From a virus: a DNA stretch of 31,823 nt. The stretch is from positions 1 to 31,823 of IMG/VR virus record IMGVR_UViG_3300042335_000578; one strand, given 5' to 3'. Position 1 is the stretch's first letter; every line of letters starts with the position of its first letter. The notes beneath the pieces are model-generated. The model saw nothing but the letters and a program-made list of their open reading frames with translations. It did not search any database and had not been told where the DNA came from. Position numbers and translations under genes: made by a program. Shown piece by piece: positions 6,490 to 26,478 of this stretch.

Positions 6490-7401
6490 TTAGAGGACTT
6501 CGTCACACGGGACTTCGACGACTTTGGCTTCCTGCATGCGCGTTGCGCCCAAAGAGGCGACAGTGCGGATCTGCAAGGCGTGGCTCTTGTCGGCACGGAT
6601 ATCGACATGCACTTTGCGTCCCGCGTCGGCCAGCTTGATGCCGGACTTGACGTAGGCGAAGCAGGTGCGGACGCCGGTTCCACTCGCGTAGGGCAAGAGG
6701 CTGGAAGCAACACGGCGGAAGGTGAATCCCATGAACGTGTTGATCTCGCCATTGACCAAGGCGCGAACGGTGTTGAAGTCGCCGCTGGTCACCTCGGTCG
6801 TGCGAAGCAAATCTTGGATCTGCTTGGCGGAAACGACCATGATGCGCGGGTCACTGTCATCAACTTCAGCGTTGGTGAGCAGGAACGCCGCTTGACGCAG
6901 CTTGGCGATGGTGAGGCCACTGTTGGCCGTGCTGCCGGTTTCGACGAAATCGACGGCGATCTTCTGCCCAGCGGGCAAAGCGGTCGCGGTGACGCCAGTC
7001 TCTCCGGTGTAGGCGTTGCCAAGGGCGGCATCGATGATCACCTTGTCGGCGGTGCGGGCATAGGCGGCGGCGTGATTCGCAACCGTCTCGCTCTGGGGAA
7101 GGCTGACCTCGCCCAGATACTCGCTGTCCCACTCGTCGAACAACGTGGCGTGTTCAAACGGATAGGGGCGAAGCCAGCGTTTGGCCAAGGCCACATCGCT
7201 GATGTTGGTGTCGGCTGCGCGGCTGGTGATGCGTTGCATCTCCACTGCGCCCATTTGATTGTAGGATTTCTCCTTGCCGCGGACTGTCTCGACGGAAACG
7301 TATTCGCGCAGCTTGGAAAGTTTCTGCTGAAGCAGATGCTCCCAGTTGCTGGAGAACTCCGTCGTGAAGTATTGCGGGATTTGATTAACGGCAGTTGCCA
7401 T
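6490..7401 (-). CDS. Major capsid protein
   Basis: 303 residues. The N terminus MATAVNQIPQYFTTEFSSNWEHLLQQKLSKLR, followed by GKEKSYNQMG and RYPFEHATLFDEWD-like segments, matches the HK97-fold major capsid proteins of many podoviruses and siphoviruses (the Phage_capsid_2 style). The C-terminal half contains DPRIMVVSAKQIQDLL and FTFRRVASSLL, typical of the same family. It follows the scaffold module and precedes the tail genes. A strong Shine-Dalgarno (AAAGGAGTTAATT) precedes the ATG at 7401, and a perfect copy of the 15-bp dyad lies 13 bases further upstream, suggesting that this highly expressed gene starts its own regulated unit. Confidence 0.9.
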   Translation of the reverse strand: MATAVNQIPQYFTTEFSSNWEHLLQQKLSKLREYVSVETVRGKEKSYNQMGAVEMQRITSRAADTNISDVALAKRWLRPYPFEHATLFDEWDSEYLGEVSLPQSETVANHAAAYARTADKVIIDAALGNAYTGETGVTATALPAGQKIAVDFVETGSTANSGLTIAKLRQAAFLLTNAEVDDSDPRIMVVSAKQIQDLLRTTEVTSGDFNTVRALVNGEINTFMGFTFRRVASSLLPYASGTGVRTCFAYVKSGIKLADAGRKVHVDIRADKSHALQIRTVASLGATRMQEAKVVEVPCDEVL

Positions 7402-7414
7402 AATTAACTCCTTT

Positions 7415-7429
7415 GGTTTTGACTAAACC
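7415..7429 (-). promoter_or_regulatory. 15-bp dyad operator-like site, copy 2 (perfect)
   Basis: Reads GGTTTAGTCAAAACC on the minus strand, a full match, 13 bases upstream of the capsid ATG and adjoining its Shine-Dalgarno. Confidence 0.75.
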
Positions 7430-7578
7430 CACGTTATTGCGGGCCTTGTCGGGTTGATTGGTTGTGGTGTCCTCGGCGCTACCGATATTCCTCCACCGGA
7501 GGGTCGTCGGCCTTGGGCTGTGCGCGTTGGACAGGCTCCACAAGGAGTATACTGCCTAACTTGGTGCGAGAATTGCGC

Positions 7579-7596
7579 TGCGCCGGAAGTGGCGCA
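7579..7596. other. Short hairpin in the capsid leader
   Basis: TGCGCC and GGCGCA pair around a 6-base loop. Neither strand has a following T-run, so it is not a standard terminator. The right arm continues into GGCGCAAGGGTTTA, which recurs at 16347-16360. Confidence 0.4.
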
Positions 7597-7598
7597 AG

Positions 7599-7613
7599 GG
7601 TTTAGTCAAAAAA
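7599..7613 (+). promoter_or_regulatory. 15-bp dyad operator-like site, copy 3
   Basis: Reads GGTTTAGTCAAAAAA on the plus strand, 13 of 15. It is inside the capsid leader, far from any start codon, next to a small hairpin. Confidence 0.55.
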
Positions 7614-7701: not shown

Positions 7702-7848
7702 TTAGCGCAGCGCCGCCCACAAAAATCCGCCGTTGGCGCACCCGTAGAAGAAAAAGATAACGGCCATCGCCGGATCGCCCTGCCTCCACCACCCTACCGC
7801 GGTGGCAAAGTAAAGCAGGGTGCAGGCGAGGAGCGGCCAGAAGGTCAT
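7702..7848 (-). CDS. Small two-helix membrane protein
   Basis: 48 residues beginning MTFWPLLACTLLYFATAVGWW. Two hydrophobic stretches (about residues 3-21 and 29-46) are separated by a short polar turn containing RQGDPA, so it is probably an inner-membrane hairpin. The start ATG at 7848 overlaps the stop of the HExxH gene as ATGA, which supports it as a real coupled gene. Size and topology are holin-like, but its position before the capsid gene, away from the endolysin, does not favour lysis. It could be a membrane partner of the HExxH protein. Function unknown. Confidence 0.6.
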   Translation of the reverse strand: MTFWPLLACTLLYFATAVGWWRQGDPAMAVIFFFYGCANGGFLWAALR

Positions 7849-8135
7849 CCGATCACGCCGTCGTTCTTGCGCTCCACCCAGTCCATGACCTCGGCAATAA
7901 CCAGACTGACTTCGGCAATAGCGTCTTCTTCGATGTCCCAAAAACGGGCATGAAGCAGTTCATGGATGACAAGTTCTTTGCCGCGGTGGGCAATAGCGTC
8001 GGGGTGGATGTAGACGCTTCTATCGTCTCGGACGCACAGTCCGTCCACAGGCTCGCGCTCCGGCGGTCGCTGGAGCTTGACCCTCCAACACTTGCCATCG
8101 AGGGCGACTCGCTTGGTGGGGATGCGGCGGCTCAT
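7845..8135 (-). CDS. Small HExxH (zinc metallopeptidase-like) protein
   Basis: 96 residues from ATG at 8135 (start MSRRIPTKRVALDG). Residues 58-62 read HELLH, the HExxH zinc-binding signature, preceded by the hydrophobic stretch LVI and followed about ten residues later by acidic residues (E69, E70, E75) that could give a third ligand. The upstream VYIHPDAIAHRGKE resembles the strand-helix entry of SprT- or ImmA-like minimal gluzincins. It is short for a full peptidase, so it may be a minimal protease or a metal-binding remnant. The ATG overlaps the stop of the winged-helix-like gene (ATGA), so the whole insert is one coupled string. Possible roles, all inference: prohead or scaffold processing (it lies between scaffold and capsid) or host-protein cleavage. 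Confidence 0.7.
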   Translation of the reverse strand: MSRRIPTKRVALDGKCWRVKLQRPPEREPVDGLCVRDDRSVYIHPDAIAHRGKELVIHELLHARFWDIEEDAIAEVSLVIAEVMDWVERKNDGVIG

Positions 8136-8383
8136 TTGAGTCGGTAGTGGGAAACGGAGCGGACGCGCTCGGAGAGGCGAATGGTAAAGCTGCGCTTTTC
8201 GCACAGCCCTTGCTCAACCATCCGGCGCACTTGCTCGCTGGTGATGCACTCGCTGCGTCCGCGGGCCTTGGCCAGTTGCTTGACGGTGAACCAGCCCTCC
8301 GGCACCTCCTCGACCGGCGTGGTGGGTTGTGCAAGGGCTTGGCACCATTGGGCCAGTTGTTTGTCAACTTTGGTTGTCTTCAT
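8132..8383 (-). CDS. Small winged-helix-like DNA-binding candidate
   Basis: 83 residues starting MKTTKVDKQLAQWCQ. The segment GWFTVKQLAKARGRSECITSEQVRRMVEQGL looks like a helix-turn-helix (residues about 34-64), followed by two short basic strands (RSFTIRLSERVRSVSHYRLK) that could be a wing. The ATG at 8383 overlaps the metallophosphoesterase stop and its own stop overlaps the next start, so it is firmly embedded in the operon. A small HTH protein in a structural cluster is unusual, and it is one of few DNA-binding candidates here that might recognise the dyad sites. No family identified. Confidence 0.65.
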   Translation of the reverse strand: MKTTKVDKQLAQWCQALAQPTTPVEEVPEGWFTVKQLAKARGRSECITSEQVRRMVEQGLCEKRSFTIRLSERVRSVSHYRLK

Positions 8384-9120
8384 AGTGGGAGTTCGTAATG
8401 CGGATCGAAGACCGCGATGTTCACGTTGCAATTAGTTCCGTTGAACGACCCGAAACACGCGGCGTGTCGCCAGCCCAGCGTTTGCCGCCGGATGGCCGAA
8501 TACCCGATGTCCAACTTGATCCCGCACCCGATGTTGTAGCCGATGGCCTTGTTGTGGATGCGGGCGCTCTCCATCGCCACGCGGTGGGTGTGGCCCATGA
8601 CCACCGAATGGCCCACCATTTCCGCGGTGTCCCGCGCCGCCGACACGTTGTACATCGCCCCGTGGGTGAAACCGGTGTCGCCCAGCATGAACATGCCGCT
8701 TTTGTGGACGCCCGCGTAGGGGATGATCTGGCACTTGAGCTTGCCCATCTCGTCCTCAATGCGGGACAGGACGCTGCTGGCCGCGTAGCTCAAAACCGCG
8801 TTGGGGCTGTGGGCCAGTTCGGTCAATCGACTTTCGTGGTTCCCGAATAGGTAGACGTCGGGCTTGAGTTCGCGCAGAAAGGCCAGTCCCTGCATTAAGT
8901 CGTCGGCCAGATCGGCCCCGTGGTCGGCAGAGTCGCTGTCTTTGCGAGCGCCGGAGCGCAAAGCGCGGGCATCGATGGCATCGCCCAGATGCAGGACGAA
9001 ATCCGGCTTCCACGCTTCGCGCAGTCGCAGGATGGCGTCGAGCGCCCGCGGATCAGCCTCTGACCCGTGGGTGCATGTGCAGGCCAGAAACTTCTGCCAG
9101 CCTTTGGACTTGTTGGCCAT
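8380..9120 (-). CDS. Calcineurin-like metallophosphoesterase with an altered first metal motif
   Basis: 246 residues. Motifs of the binuclear metallophosphoesterase fold are visible in order: CTH at 16-18 (normally DxH), GDAID at 46-50, GNHE at 93-96, FTHG around 153, and GHTHR at 176-180. All metal-binding positions are conserved except the first aspartate, which is cysteine here. Family members hydrolyse phosphodiesters or phosphomonoesters, including nucleic acids and nucleotides; the substrate cannot be told from sequence. The gene follows the scaffold gene with a 19-base gap and its stop overlaps the next start. Such enzymes occur in phages, sometimes as DNA-processing or anti-defence proteins, but placement between scaffold and capsid is unusual. 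Cysteine at this site could still bind metal or could lower activity. Confidence 0.88.
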   Translation of the reverse strand: MANKSKGWQKFLACTCTHGSEADPRALDAILRLREAWKPDFVLHLGDAIDARALRSGARKDSDSADHGADLADDLMQGLAFLRELKPDVYLFGNHESRLTELAHSPNAVLSYAASSVLSRIEDEMGKLKCQIIPYAGVHKSGMFMLGDTGFTHGAMYNVSAARDTAEMVGHSVVMGHTHRVAMESARIHNKAIGYNIGCGIKLDIGYSAIRRQTLGWRHAACFGSFNGTNCNVNIAVFDPHYELPL

Positions 9121-9139: not shown

Positions 9140-10015
9140 TTACGCGCTGGTCAGCATCCGGCGCACTTGGTCAACGACCTCCGCGTCACCCTCTTGGTAG
9201 CGGGAATAGAGCGGGTTGGCCGCGTTGGTCATAATGTCCCTTGCGCGGGCGCGGGTGCTGCTTGCTCCGGTTTGGTCACCGGCTACCAGCTTGTCGTCGG
9301 ACAACTTCTCCGCGAGGTTGACGATGGCCTTAACCACTTGCGGATCGACAAAGCCTTGGGACGTCGGATCGACTCCGGCGGTCACCGCGGCTCGGCGGGC
9401 CAGTTCGATCTTCTCCGGCATCTTGTCGCCCCAGACCTTCTGGAGTTCGGCCCGTCCGGTTTCCAGTTGGGTTTCGATCATCTGGGCGGCGGCTTGGTTC
9501 ATTAGCGCGGCCCGCTCCATGTCGAACTTCATAAACTCCTGCATCGCGGCGGCAGGCACGTTGTGCTTGTAGGCGAGTTCCGCGGCCTTCTTGGCCACGT
9601 TGTCGTCCCATGTGACTCCTTCCGGCAGTTGTTCTGGCTTGAGGTTGTAGGCTTCGGGCGATTCGGGAACGCCGATCGCCTTGCGGTATTCGGCCACTTC
9701 TTCCGGCGTGGACTTTTCGGTGGGCGGAACGACGGCTTGGGCTTTACGGCCCAAAGCGCGTTGGGCTACGTCGTAGCTTTTGGCCAGCGCCTCGACATTC
9801 GGGCCTTTGTCTGTCCAGAACTTGGCCTCCAGCCATTCGGGCTTATCCCCTATGGCTGGCGCTGCGGCTGGCGCGTCGGTAACGCTGGCAGGCGCACTGG
9901 AAAGGAGTGTCCCTTCCGTTGTGGTGTTGAGGTTAGCAGCGGGTGCGGTGGACGCGGGAACAGCGGCGCTGTCCGCGGTGGTGCTGGTTTCGGAGGTGGT
10001 GGTTGCATCGATCAT
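9140..10015 (-). CDS. Scaffolding protein (T7 gp9-like)
   Basis: 291 residues. Residues 1-50 are a low-complexity T/S/A/P tract with no predicted structure. The rest is charged and helical (for example KPEWLEAKFWTDKGPNVEALAKSYDVAQRALGRK, then TPEEVAEYRKAIGVPESPEAYNLKP) with a basic, helical C terminus ending YSRYQEGDAEVVDQVRRMLTS. The WLEAKFW and GVPESPEAY blocks recur in podoviral scaffold proteins, which drive procapsid assembly and leave before DNA packaging. It lies downstream of portal and upstream of capsid, as expected. The start ATG at 10015 has an A/C-rich leader with no Shine-Dalgarno and has the 15-bp dyad 19 bases upstream. Confidence 0.88.
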   Translation of the reverse strand: MIDATTTSETSTTADSAAVPASTAPAANLNTTTEGTLLSSAPASVTDAPAAAPAIGDKPEWLEAKFWTDKGPNVEALAKSYDVAQRALGRKAQAVVPPTEKSTPEEVAEYRKAIGVPESPEAYNLKPEQLPEGVTWDDNVAKKAAELAYKHNVPAAAMQEFMKFDMERAALMNQAAAQMIETQLETGRAELQKVWGDKMPEKIELARRAAVTAGVDPTSQGFVDPQVVKAIVNLAEKLSDDKLVAGDQTGASSTRARARDIMTNAANPLYSRYQEGDAEVVDQVRRMLTSA

Positions 10016-23932: not shown

Positions 23933-25087
23933 ATGTCTTCACTCATCATCCTTCCCAACAGTCCCTATTGGATGGCCCGCATGCGGGTCTGGATTTTCTC
24001 ACAAGACCACCCAGACGGCGGCTTTTGGCGTCAGACTTGCCGTAGCACAAAGATGCCGCACAAGACAACCCCGCGCAAAACGGCCCAGCGGTATGCCGAC
24101 GAATTGGAGCGGATCGGGCGCGAACTGCGCGACCAGATACCAGACGAGGTGTGGATGAAGGCGAGCGTGGCGGCTCTTATGCGGGCCGCGGGCGTCAAGG
24201 GGTCAACGCGCCGCACCACATGGGAAAAGGCCGCACAGGGCTATATAGGCGCAAAGACGGCCAAGCCTCGCAGCATGGAGAGCTACATAAAGCATTGTCA
24301 GCATTTTGCGGATTTCCTTGGCCAGCGAGCGCGGCATGACCTTCAGTCGGTCGAGCCGGACGACATCAGCGCCTTCTACCACGATCTGCTCAAGCGCGGC
24401 CTCTCCCGCACCAGCGCCCAGCAGATCACCAAAACCGTCCGCGCCGTCTTCCACCGCGCCCTGCACCTCCGGCAGATCGACGCCAATCCGGCGGCGCTGT
24501 TTCGCATGAGCGAGGACGGGCCGCAATCTGGCCGTAAGCCTTTCAGCACCGACGACATCAATTCCATCCTTGCCGCCGCTGATGCAGAATGGCGCACTGC
24601 CTGCCTCTTCGGCCTTTACTACGGCATGCGTATCGGTGACGCCATCCGGCGCGACTACTCCGAAATCGAAGGCGGCGTCCTTCGCTTTGTGCCGGAAAAA
24701 AAATCACGCAAGGCCAAGGTTGTCTCCGTTCCAATTGTAGGCGAACTTTCCGCCCTCCGCGGCAAAGGTAAAGTCACCCCCACCCTCGCCAAGCTGTCGG
24801 TGTCTGTGGCCTCGCGCCACTTTTCTGACCTACTCGACCGCGCTGGTATCACACGGACGAAGACCAAGAAGAAAGGCCAAGGTCGAGGGGTGACTGACAA
24901 GACGTTTCATAGCTGGAGACATACCATCAACACTCTCATGGTGGACGCAGGGGTGGATCAGCGCGTCCGACAACTCGTCTGCGACCACGATTCGACAAAG
25001 GTCAGCAACAACTACACTCATGCTTCGATACAAACTATGGCCGAAGCTATTAAGCGTTCTGTGCCGTTGTTAGAACGTAAGGAATAA
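23933..25087 (+). CDS. int: Tyrosine-family integrase
   Basis: 384 residues and the only plus-strand gene. The catalytic residues are present: R233 in YYGMRIGDA, a lysine in the beta hairpin near 259-263, H326 and R329 in FHSWRHT, H352 in CDHDS, and Y361 in SNNYTH. The core-binding SAM-like domain spans about residues 95-190, and the N terminus has the SPYWMARMR...RQTCRSTK pattern of an arm-binding domain. It would recombine the phage att core, 69 bases upstream, with a host tRNA gene. The 3' end overlaps the converging endolysin gene by 38 bases, so antisense transcription could limit one or the other. A later ATG at M41 (24053) is possible but would remove the conserved N-terminal motif. 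Confidence 0.95.
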   Translation: MSSLIILPNSPYWMARMRVWIFSQDHPDGGFWRQTCRSTKMPHKTTPRKTAQRYADELERIGRELRDQIPDEVWMKASVAALMRAAGVKGSTRRTTWEKAAQGYIGAKTAKPRSMESYIKHCQHFADFLGQRARHDLQSVEPDDISAFYHDLLKRGLSRTSAQQITKTVRAVFHRALHLRQIDANPAALFRMSEDGPQSGRKPFSTDDINSILAAADAEWRTACLFGLYYGMRIGDAIRRDYSEIEGGVLRFVPEKKSRKAKVVSVPIVGELSALRGKGKVTPTLAKLSVSVASRHFSDLLDRAGITRTKTKKKGQGRGVTDKTFHSWRHTINTLMVDAGVDQRVRQLVCDHDSTKVSNNYTHASIQTMAEAIKRSVPLLERKE

Positions 25088-25625
25088 CCTTCTGCCCGTA
25101 GCGATCCATCTCCCCGTAAACAAGGCCGATAAAGCTGGGCCACTGCTCGCGTGGGATTGTCTGGCATCCAAGACTTGAAGTCACAGATTGTGATACCGAA
25201 TTGATGCTGCCCCCGCGGTGAATGTTAATGGCCACACCTTGCGAGCGTCCAAGCTGCCCGTCCCGCGTCACCGGCAGCGATTCGCTGGGGTTAGCTGGGC
25301 GCAGCGCCGGATACGGGTTGCCGCGGGAAATGCCGTGTTTGCCCTTCCGGTATTTGTGGACGCCTTCGACGAGTGACGCGATCCCCTTCCGCCAGAACGA
25401 CGGGTCGGTGTTGCCGTTGTAAGCAGCGAACGCGGTAGGCGAGATCACTGCAATGCAGTCATCCCATATCCCGCGGTCGTTCTTCTTTGGGTCTCCAAGT
25501 GTGCGGAGGTAGTAGCCGCGGATGCCAACGATAGCGACGGCGTCTTTCACGCCGTGCTTGCGTGCAATCTCCTCGACGTCCTGCGCGGTGATCCGCGGGC
25601 GCGTCTTGGGCGATTTAGCGGGCAT
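25050..25625 (-). CDS. Endolysin candidate with YkuD-like His/Cys motif
   Basis: 191 residues from ATG at 25625. NDRGIWDDCIAV and NGNTDPSFWRKGIASLVEGVHKYRKGKHG lead into VTRDGQ, VAINIHRGGS and SSLGCQTIP. H136, fourteen residues, S151-L-G-C154 fits the H-x(14-17)-[S/T]-x-G-C catalytic pattern of L,D-transpeptidase (YkuD) type enzymes, here probably used on peptidoglycan. There is no signal peptide, so export would need a holin. The two genes upstream encode a small membrane protein and a lipoprotein, forming a lysis cassette. Its 3' end converges with the integrase. No amidase or lysozyme motif was found. Confidence 0.8.
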   Translation of the reverse strand: MPAKSPKTRPRITAQDVEEIARKHGVKDAVAIVGIRGYYLRTLGDPKKNDRGIWDDCIAVISPTAFAAYNGNTDPSFWRKGIASLVEGVHKYRKGKHGISRGNPYPALRPANPSESLPVTRDGQLGRSQGVAINIHRGGSINSVSQSVTSSLGCQTIPREQWPSFIGLVYGEMDRYGQKVIPYVLTTAQNA

Positions 25626-25944: not shown

Positions 25945-26478
25945 TCAAGGGTTTGCGGCCAATACGGCCAACGCCTCTGCCGATGCTTCCTCAAACGAAT
26001 AAGGCGCGGCAGGATAGTCGCTGCGCTTCTCATCGGGCGCGGTCACGCCCGCGACAATCATGCCATCGAGCCATCCCTGCACAGCGGCGAGCTTGGGCGA
26101 GGTCTTTTGCGCGGCGTCGAGTTGCAGTTTGAGATAAAGCAGGGTTGTCGGGCGGTTGCCGTCAAACTTTTGCTGATCGACCCATTCGGTCGCCGTGTAA
26201 GTGGGCACATACGGCACAGGCGGCGGCGGAATCACATAACCCTCATCCACAGGCAGCGCCGCTTCGACCATCTGCTTGACCGTAGCCTCGTCCAAGGCGT
26301 CCAGTTCGGGGCCGTCAGTCGCCCACAGGGTCAATCGTGTCGGCCAGCCCACCTCGACCACCTCCACCTCGCCCGTCTCGCTGTCGCGCTGCATCTGGTA
26401 GCTGAAGCCGTGCCATGTGCGGCCGTCTATGCTGCGGGGTTCGTCCAAGAGGACGTTGTAGATTTCTTCGGAGTTCAT
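25945..26478 (-). CDS. Hypothetical tail fibre-associated protein
   Basis: 177 residues. The N-terminal part (MNSEEIYNVLLDEPRSIDGRTWHGFSYQMQRD) is acidic, the middle is PPPPVPYVPTYTATEWVDQQKFDGNR (proline-rich linker), and the C-terminal part is helical (LYLKLQLDAAQKTSPKLAAVQGWLDG), ending SAEALAVLAANP. Proteins placed right after a tail fibre gene often act as fibre assembly chaperones; this one follows the 942-aa fibre with a four-base gap. The conserved C-terminal ...YSFEEASAEAL supports a compact helical domain. Function is inferred from context. Confidence 0.6.
   Translation of the reverse strand: MNSEEIYNVLLDEPRSIDGRTWHGFSYQMQRDSETGEVEVVEVGWPTRLTLWATDGPELDALDEATVKQMVEAALPVDEGYVIPPPPVPYVPTYTATEWVDQQKFDGNRPTTLLYLKLQLDAAQKTSPKLAAVQGWLDGMIVAGVTAPDEKRSDYPAAPYSFEEASAEALAVLAANP

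Follow-up and report, generated by a model that had tools for sequence, protein, structure and literature searches.

A four-gene cassette with overlapping genes, apparently transferable and accessory, between the scaffold and capsid genes of a temperate phage

Why does a phage carry a cassette of four genes between its scaffold and capsid genes? The window, by which we mean the whole stretch of DNA analysed here, is an IMG/VR record of 31,823 bp that is possibly a fragment. At 7702–9120 it encodes a metallophosphoesterase (MPE), a small winged-helix-like protein (WH), a protein with an HExxH motif (HEx) and a peptide with two hydrophobic segments (TM), in that order on the minus strand, with scaffold and capsid genes as flanks (Table 1). 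The preliminary description of the locus had considered two roles for the set, head maturation and a transferable accessory system such as counter-defence or superinfection exclusion. We hold with middling confidence that the genes are best explained as an accessory cassette of temperate phages, transferable and coupled at translation, which likely serves counter-defence or exclusion and not capsid processing. The parts of this explanation differ in strength: a transferable accessory cassette is well supported, while counter-defence would be our best guess, by analogy with a distant mycobacteriophage MPE group that includes reported counter-defence members.

Gene order, overlaps and phage backbone

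Table 1. Coordinates of the cassette, its flanks, the capsid leader and the integrase end in the window
Feature	Position	Strand	Remarks
Major capsid protein	6490..7401	-	Downstream of cassette; PF19821 E 1.1e-76
Structured RNA leader of capsid gene	7408..7580	-	Directly 3' of cassette; covariance model R1 178 bits
Inverted repeat arm 1	7417..7430		Perfect 14 nt, flanks leader; partner 7598-7611
Inverted repeat arm 2	7598..7611		Partner of 7417-7430
TM	7702..7848	-	48-aa peptide, two hydrophobic segments
HEx	7845..8135	-	96 aa, predicted minimal zincin
WH	8132..8383	-	83 aa, small winged-helix-like protein
MPE	8380..9120	-	246 aa, calcineurin-like metallophosphoesterase
Scaffold-like protein	9140..10015	-	Upstream of cassette; phrog_3742 E 6.9e-34
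Tyrosine integrase	23933..25087	+	Convergent with 25050-25625; phrog_1 E 1.7e-30
Last lysis-end gene (putative)	25050..25625	-	After Rz1-like and holin-like genes, abuts integrase; sequence reading

All four ATGA-coupled reading frames of the preliminary description are present, and exact 4-nt overlaps were found at the three junctions: 8380–8383 (MPE/WH), 8132–8135 (WH/HEx) and 7845–7848 (HEx/TM). A 4-nt overlap is possible at these junctions in 45, 43 and 40, respectively, of 46 distinct haplotypes of the window's own backbone (backbone A); for a second, siphovirus backbone the counts are 19, 17 and 16 of 20. This is more than chance.

The T7-like setting that had been suggested for the locus is not evident. 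The head genes of the window (portal PF12236, Bbp19-like PF25181 and capsid PF19821) are of the BPP-1/HTVC010P type; the capsid and the Bbp19-like gene point to BPP-1/HTVC010P-like podoviruses, and an integrase is present. ExoVIII, RecT and the tyrosine integrase are encoded elsewhere in the window. From its position, we infer a lysis role for the gene at 25050–25625. The gene at 25945–26478, at the tail/lysis end, has relatives of up to 75% in unrelated siphovirus loci, which fits a shared gene pool and suggests a shared host pool.

Distribution, placement and allele exchange

To avoid bias, loci of backbone A were gathered from IMG/VR through the scaffold protein. In all 47 scaffold-anchored loci with both scaffold and capsid in view, the cassette lies between the two; its first gene is MPE in 33 loci and, in the other 14, MPE2, a different MPE-like protein. 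The cassette is also in the head operon of two divergent relatives, L088 and L112 (portal 58–59%). All four genes recur, with their order unchanged, in 24 loci without backbone-A genes (22 with MPE, two with MPE2), and so they occur together in a second, unrelated backbone, a point that the preliminary description had proposed to check. One of these loci, G002, was read whole, while the other 23 were placed with it on the basis of their flanks, as far as these were read, and because they lack backbone-A genes. G002 (39,284 bp) is a temperate siphovirus with a lambda-type portal and terminase, a tape-measure protein, a tyrosine integrase and an amidase endolysin. Its cassette lies between the integrase (plus strand) and the endolysin (minus strand), on the strand opposite to the late genes. 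Because unrelated phages carry the same gene order at a different genome position, we regard the cassette as a transferable accessory unit.

The relative G001 (locus L177; 39,272 bp; portal 61% to that of the window) and the window are reciprocal. G001 is complete, judging from its 123-bp terminal repeat. In its head operon, the scaffold gene is followed by a terminator-like hairpin, the leader and the capsid gene, and the insert is absent. MPE2-WH-HEx lie directly past the endolysin, ahead of a convergent integrase; TM was not found in G001. In the window, the lysis-end gene (25625–25050) overlaps the end of the convergent integrase gene (25087) and there is no cassette between them. Thus, each phage is empty where the other is filled, and a coupled accessory cassette is able to occupy either the classic endolysin–integrase slot or the head operon. 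Either placement may be the older one, L088 and L112 being also of the head-operon kind. Since natural empty sites exist at both positions, both placements are directly testable. The start of G001 (L222:1–30) holds a tRNA 3'-end-like sequence, GGTTCGATTCC, a possible attachment core near the integrase.

These placements bear on head maturation, in which HEx would cut the scaffold or capsid protein at assembly, assisted by the other three proteins. The position between scaffold and capsid is fixed in 47/47 close relatives, the HExxH motif is conserved, and the scaffold-like protein has a weak match to a protease family (phrog_458, E 6.4e-8), all of which would suit such a role. However, the G002 cassette is away from the head genes: it neighbours the endolysin and integrase and runs on the opposite strand. 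The G002 head region has, by our own sequence reading, a separate ClpP-like gene. Moreover, these head genes are free of the insert in G001; HTVC010P, MW202510 and Vibrio 1.182.O have the same capsid family without the cassette; and variation is far greater in the cassette genes than in scaffold and capsid. Because the cassette is found elsewhere between endolysin and integrase, in one backbone opposite to the late-gene strand, and because a relative has an empty scaffold–capsid site, we consider this first of the proposed roles very improbable. In the close relatives, where the cassette is fixed beside the capsid gene, it could have a head-related role.

The cassette genes are hypervariable and assort fairly independently. 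Among the 46 distinct backbone-A haplotypes, the median pairwise identity is 0.69 for MPE, 0.44 for WH, 0.66 for HEx and 0.51 for TM, while it is 0.88 for scaffold and 0.85 for capsid. Allele clusters (single linkage, 75–85% identity) cross backbones for MPE (L039 and L051 with siphoviruses), MPE2 (L095 with L121) and HEx (L028 and L140 with L044), and one TM type is also common to both backbones. The association of MPE with WH alleles in backbone A was reached in 0 of 2000 shuffles, and that of WH with HEx alleles in backbone B lay above all 2000 shuffles, in both cases with shared ancestry not controlled. No association was found between MPE and HEx alleles in backbone A, which weakens the case for a tight four-part machine; in all, several allele pairs were unassociated. 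The 4-nt overlaps persist in both backbones despite the allele swapping.

Partial sets also occur. MPE and WH lie beside a DnaB-like helicase gene without HEx or TM in backbone D, where MPE is among replication genes; MPE2 and WH homologues are found, the one after the other, in the annotated phage MW202647 (L165:5282–6366, MW202647.1); and HEx is found without MPE and WH in L104–L109 (48–61% identity, contigs of about 34–74 kb). Such partial sets, together with the unassociated allele pairs, would be expected if the four genes had no joint function and were individually useful accessory genes sharing one insertion hotspot. Against this, gene order and 4-nt coupling are kept in two backbones, and the MPE–WH and WH–HEx associations exceed those of the shuffles, albeit with no control for shared ancestry. 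We therefore regard the lack of a joint function as rather unlikely.

The transferable accessory system of the preliminary description was borne out by the second backbone, the second position, the shared alleles and the empty scaffold–capsid site in a relative. Morons are lysogenic-conversion accessory cassettes of temperate phages. The present cassette is like them in being non-structural and variable and in moving between backbones, with the endolysin–integrase slot used in two of them; as in a moron, it occurs in unrelated backbones and its site is empty in relatives. Unlike morons, it is part of the head operon in the window's clade, where a structured capsid leader follows it, and it consists of four coupled genes with interchangeable alleles.

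A tblastn search of INPHARED with HEx and MPE gave no matches, an NCBIfam search gave no useful match, and PADLOC, whose families cover defence systems, gave no match to any member of the cassette. The host search of genome contigs returned one MPE, of 28%, in an Opitutaceae MAG, and the 373 genomes of that MAG's order yielded one distant HEx-like ORF.

Predicted proteins and candidate functions

The metallophosphoesterase call is upheld by matches to PF00149 (E 6.7e-8; 33.6 bits, above the cut-off of 21.5) and phrog_221 (E 1.6e-19), and the fold of the MPE model (pLDDT 72) matches SbcD/Mre11, SapH and YfcE. Motifs II–V are intact in an alignment with D29 gp54 and P8625 gp29 (GD46-47/D50, GNHE93-96, HG153-154 and GHTH176-179). 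Motif I lacks the Asp-x-His form, with Cys in place of Asp (C16-T-H18; codons 9075–9067). This Cys is common to the window's MPE clade and the siphovirus alleles, whereas backbone-D relatives retain Asp. Membership of the family thus stands by sequence and fold, and the predicted catalysis is in doubt. A search of PDB sequences with the MPE profile gave mainly alpha-synuclein artefacts and was discarded.

Distant relatives, reached via backbone D, include D29 gp54 among mycobacteriophage MPEs, and the Verrucomicrobia phage protein P8625 gp29, whose gene adjoins that of a dNMP kinase and lies near RecT. In mycobacteriophage A10ZJ24, the MPE Gp48 is reported as a counter-defence phosphodiesterase whose phosphodiesterase activity is abolished by D10G, and D29 Gp66, of the cluster A group, is reported as a cyclic phosphodiesterase (PMC12287305). 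In our reading of the sequence, D10 of Gp48 would be the motif-I Asp; given the effect of D10G, the loss of this Asp to Cys means that the window MPE may be altered or inactive. The window protein is, like the cluster A MPEs (A10ZJ24 Gp48 and Bxb1 gp47), a calcineurin-like MPE, and D29 gp54 aligns over its motifs. Unlike them, it has Cys for the motif-I Asp, is coupled to WH, HEx and TM and has a late-operon position, and the relationship, traced through backbone-D relatives, is at ~26–27% identity.

MPE2 carries the motifs SDLH, NGD, GTECH and HRH. No support for it was found in Pfam or PDB, the PDB profile search giving only unrelated lectins and others, so the label 'MPE-like' is one taken from its motifs. 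HHalign of MPE with MPE2 gave a probability of 23%, and each of the two precedes WH in several phage contexts. The MW202647.1 record leaves its MPE2 gene unannotated.

The integrase of Bxb1 is of the serine type, and the integrases found here are of the tyrosine type. This counts against control of lysogeny or excision by the cassette, with MPE as a recombination directionality factor like Bxb1 gp47 and WH as an excisionase-like protein. Furthermore, the window cassette belongs to the head operon, far away from the integrase; HEx and TM would be left without a role; and a search with WH matched no excisionase family. On the other hand, Bxb1 gp47 is a cluster A MPE that is reported to act as a directionality factor and to have no phosphoesterase activity (cited in PMC12287305). 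The motif-I Asp is gone from the window MPE as well, the integrase is the cassette's neighbour in both G001 and the siphovirus G002, and WH is small and winged-helix-like. Taken together, we consider excision control unlikely.

Improbable, too, is nucleic-acid housekeeping, for instance by a nuclease of the SbcD/Mre11 kind acting in replication or packaging. The fold match of the MPE model to SbcD/Mre11, the place of the backbone-D MPE among replication genes and the neighbours of P8625 gp29 would fit, but ExoVIII and RecT are already encoded at other places in the window, and housekeeping explains neither HEx and TM nor the lysis-end placement.

WH homologues, which follow MPE or MPE2, share the pattern VPxGW ... 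PHYxxK. Comparison with winged-helix families gave sub-threshold matches only, while the WH profile matched PDB 2lvs among solved structures with E 0.0016, its other weak matches being mostly to winged-helix regulators. The winged-helix-like call of the preliminary description thus stands as a weak profile resemblance to such regulators, and not as a family assignment.

HEx has the motif HELLH at residues 58–62 (codons 7964–7950). The HExxH motif and Glu70 (codon 7928–7926) are invariant across 23 diverse homologues, so the loss of the site in homologues, which the preliminary description had named as a refutation, did not appear. Glu70 would be a candidate third zinc ligand of a gluzincin. 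The AlphaFold2 model (pLDDT 93.9) has a small sheet, an HExxH helix at 53–64 and a long helix that starts from Glu70, 8 residues past the second His, and by this model HEx is confidently predicted to be a small zincin. Its best structural matches in PDB were selecase/minigluzincins and PprI/IrrE, all non-significant (best E 0.06); in BFVD they were small phage metallopeptidases (E 1e-4). Like minigluzincins (selecase, jannalysin) and small phage SprT/IrrE-like peptidases, HEx has a fold of ~100 aa with an HExxH helix and then a helix with a conserved Glu. It differs from these groups in the non-significance of its PDB matches, in having the Glu so soon after the second His, and in that no Pfam family was matched above cut-off.

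ImmA/ImmR systems are peptidase–repressor pairs. The overlap of WH, a small HTH-type gene, with the small HExxH gene HEx is similar. However, the window HEx had no Peptidase_M78 match at all, and one homologue reached 15.2 bits against ImmA/Peptidase_M78, where the cut-off is 22. In backbone A, WH alleles track MPE and not HEx, while they track HEx in backbone B. In view of the Peptidase_M78 score and the backbone-A associations, we set aside the idea that HEx and WH work in the manner of ImmA/ImmR.

For TM, hydropathy revealed two hydrophobic stretches with RQGDP between them (Kyte-Doolittle maxima ~1.6), in agreement with the two-helix membrane peptide described earlier. TM homologues were found in backbones A and B and once in backbone C. 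In L107, a TM homologue lies ~1 kb downstream of HEx.

Returning to the accessory cassette, its position, variability and transfer lead us to favour counter-defence or exclusion with modest confidence. It would normally reside in the accessory slot flanked by endolysin and integrase; within the clade of the window, it would sit in the head operon and be carried on the late transcript ahead of the capsid leader RNA. MPE or MPE2 would be the effector, cutting a phosphodiester in nucleic acid or in a nucleotide signal, and WH its DNA-binding or regulatory partner. HEx, as a small zinc peptidase, and TM, as a small membrane peptide, may widen or localise the effect, so that MPE/WH would form the core and HEx/TM the add-ons. 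The likely benefit would be counter-defence or the exclusion of competing phages. It is possible, though doubtful, that the MPE–WH and HEx–TM pairs act jointly as a multi-gene weapon against the defences of host or rival phage, and that unrelated phages sharing a host group exchange its alleles like cartridges; we suggest just as tentatively that a four-part phage weapon of this kind would be undescribed. If counter-defence is indeed the function, then specificity could be mapped in a compact system of four genes whose alleles have been swapped in nature.

A structured leader of the capsid gene

The capsid leader is conserved and ~170 nt long, lies within the gap of ~300 bp between TM and capsid, and ends at the capsid ribosome-binding site. 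Across 20 sequences, pairing is retained at 98% over its 35 pairs, and 23 double-change cells were counted where shuffles gave 6.9 (0/500); the folding z of the window leader is -3.48. A search of Rfam with the leader gave no match. A DNA-pattern scan placed it in 61 IMG/VR loci, with capsid the next gene wherever the downstream sequence suffices; in relatives, it lies at L177:690-859, L088:4344-4510 and L112:8195-8360. The leader model was not found in the other backbones or in the leaders of HTVC010P, MW202510 and Vibrio, and it occurs only before backbone-A capsids.

The 3' arm of the 14-nt inverted repeat also lies within a covarying local hairpin, and the two pairings are therefore mutually exclusive. 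In most members, the 3' strand of the leader can pair either locally or with the 5' arm of the repeat. These alternative pairings hint at a possible switch, and the leader, a structured RNA unlisted in Rfam, may control capsid synthesis. L177 alone among the leader-scan loci has the scaffold gene directly upstream of the leader. Between the two, at ~655-690, L177 has an intrinsic-terminator-like hairpin with a T-run, so the capsid gene there may have its own promoter.
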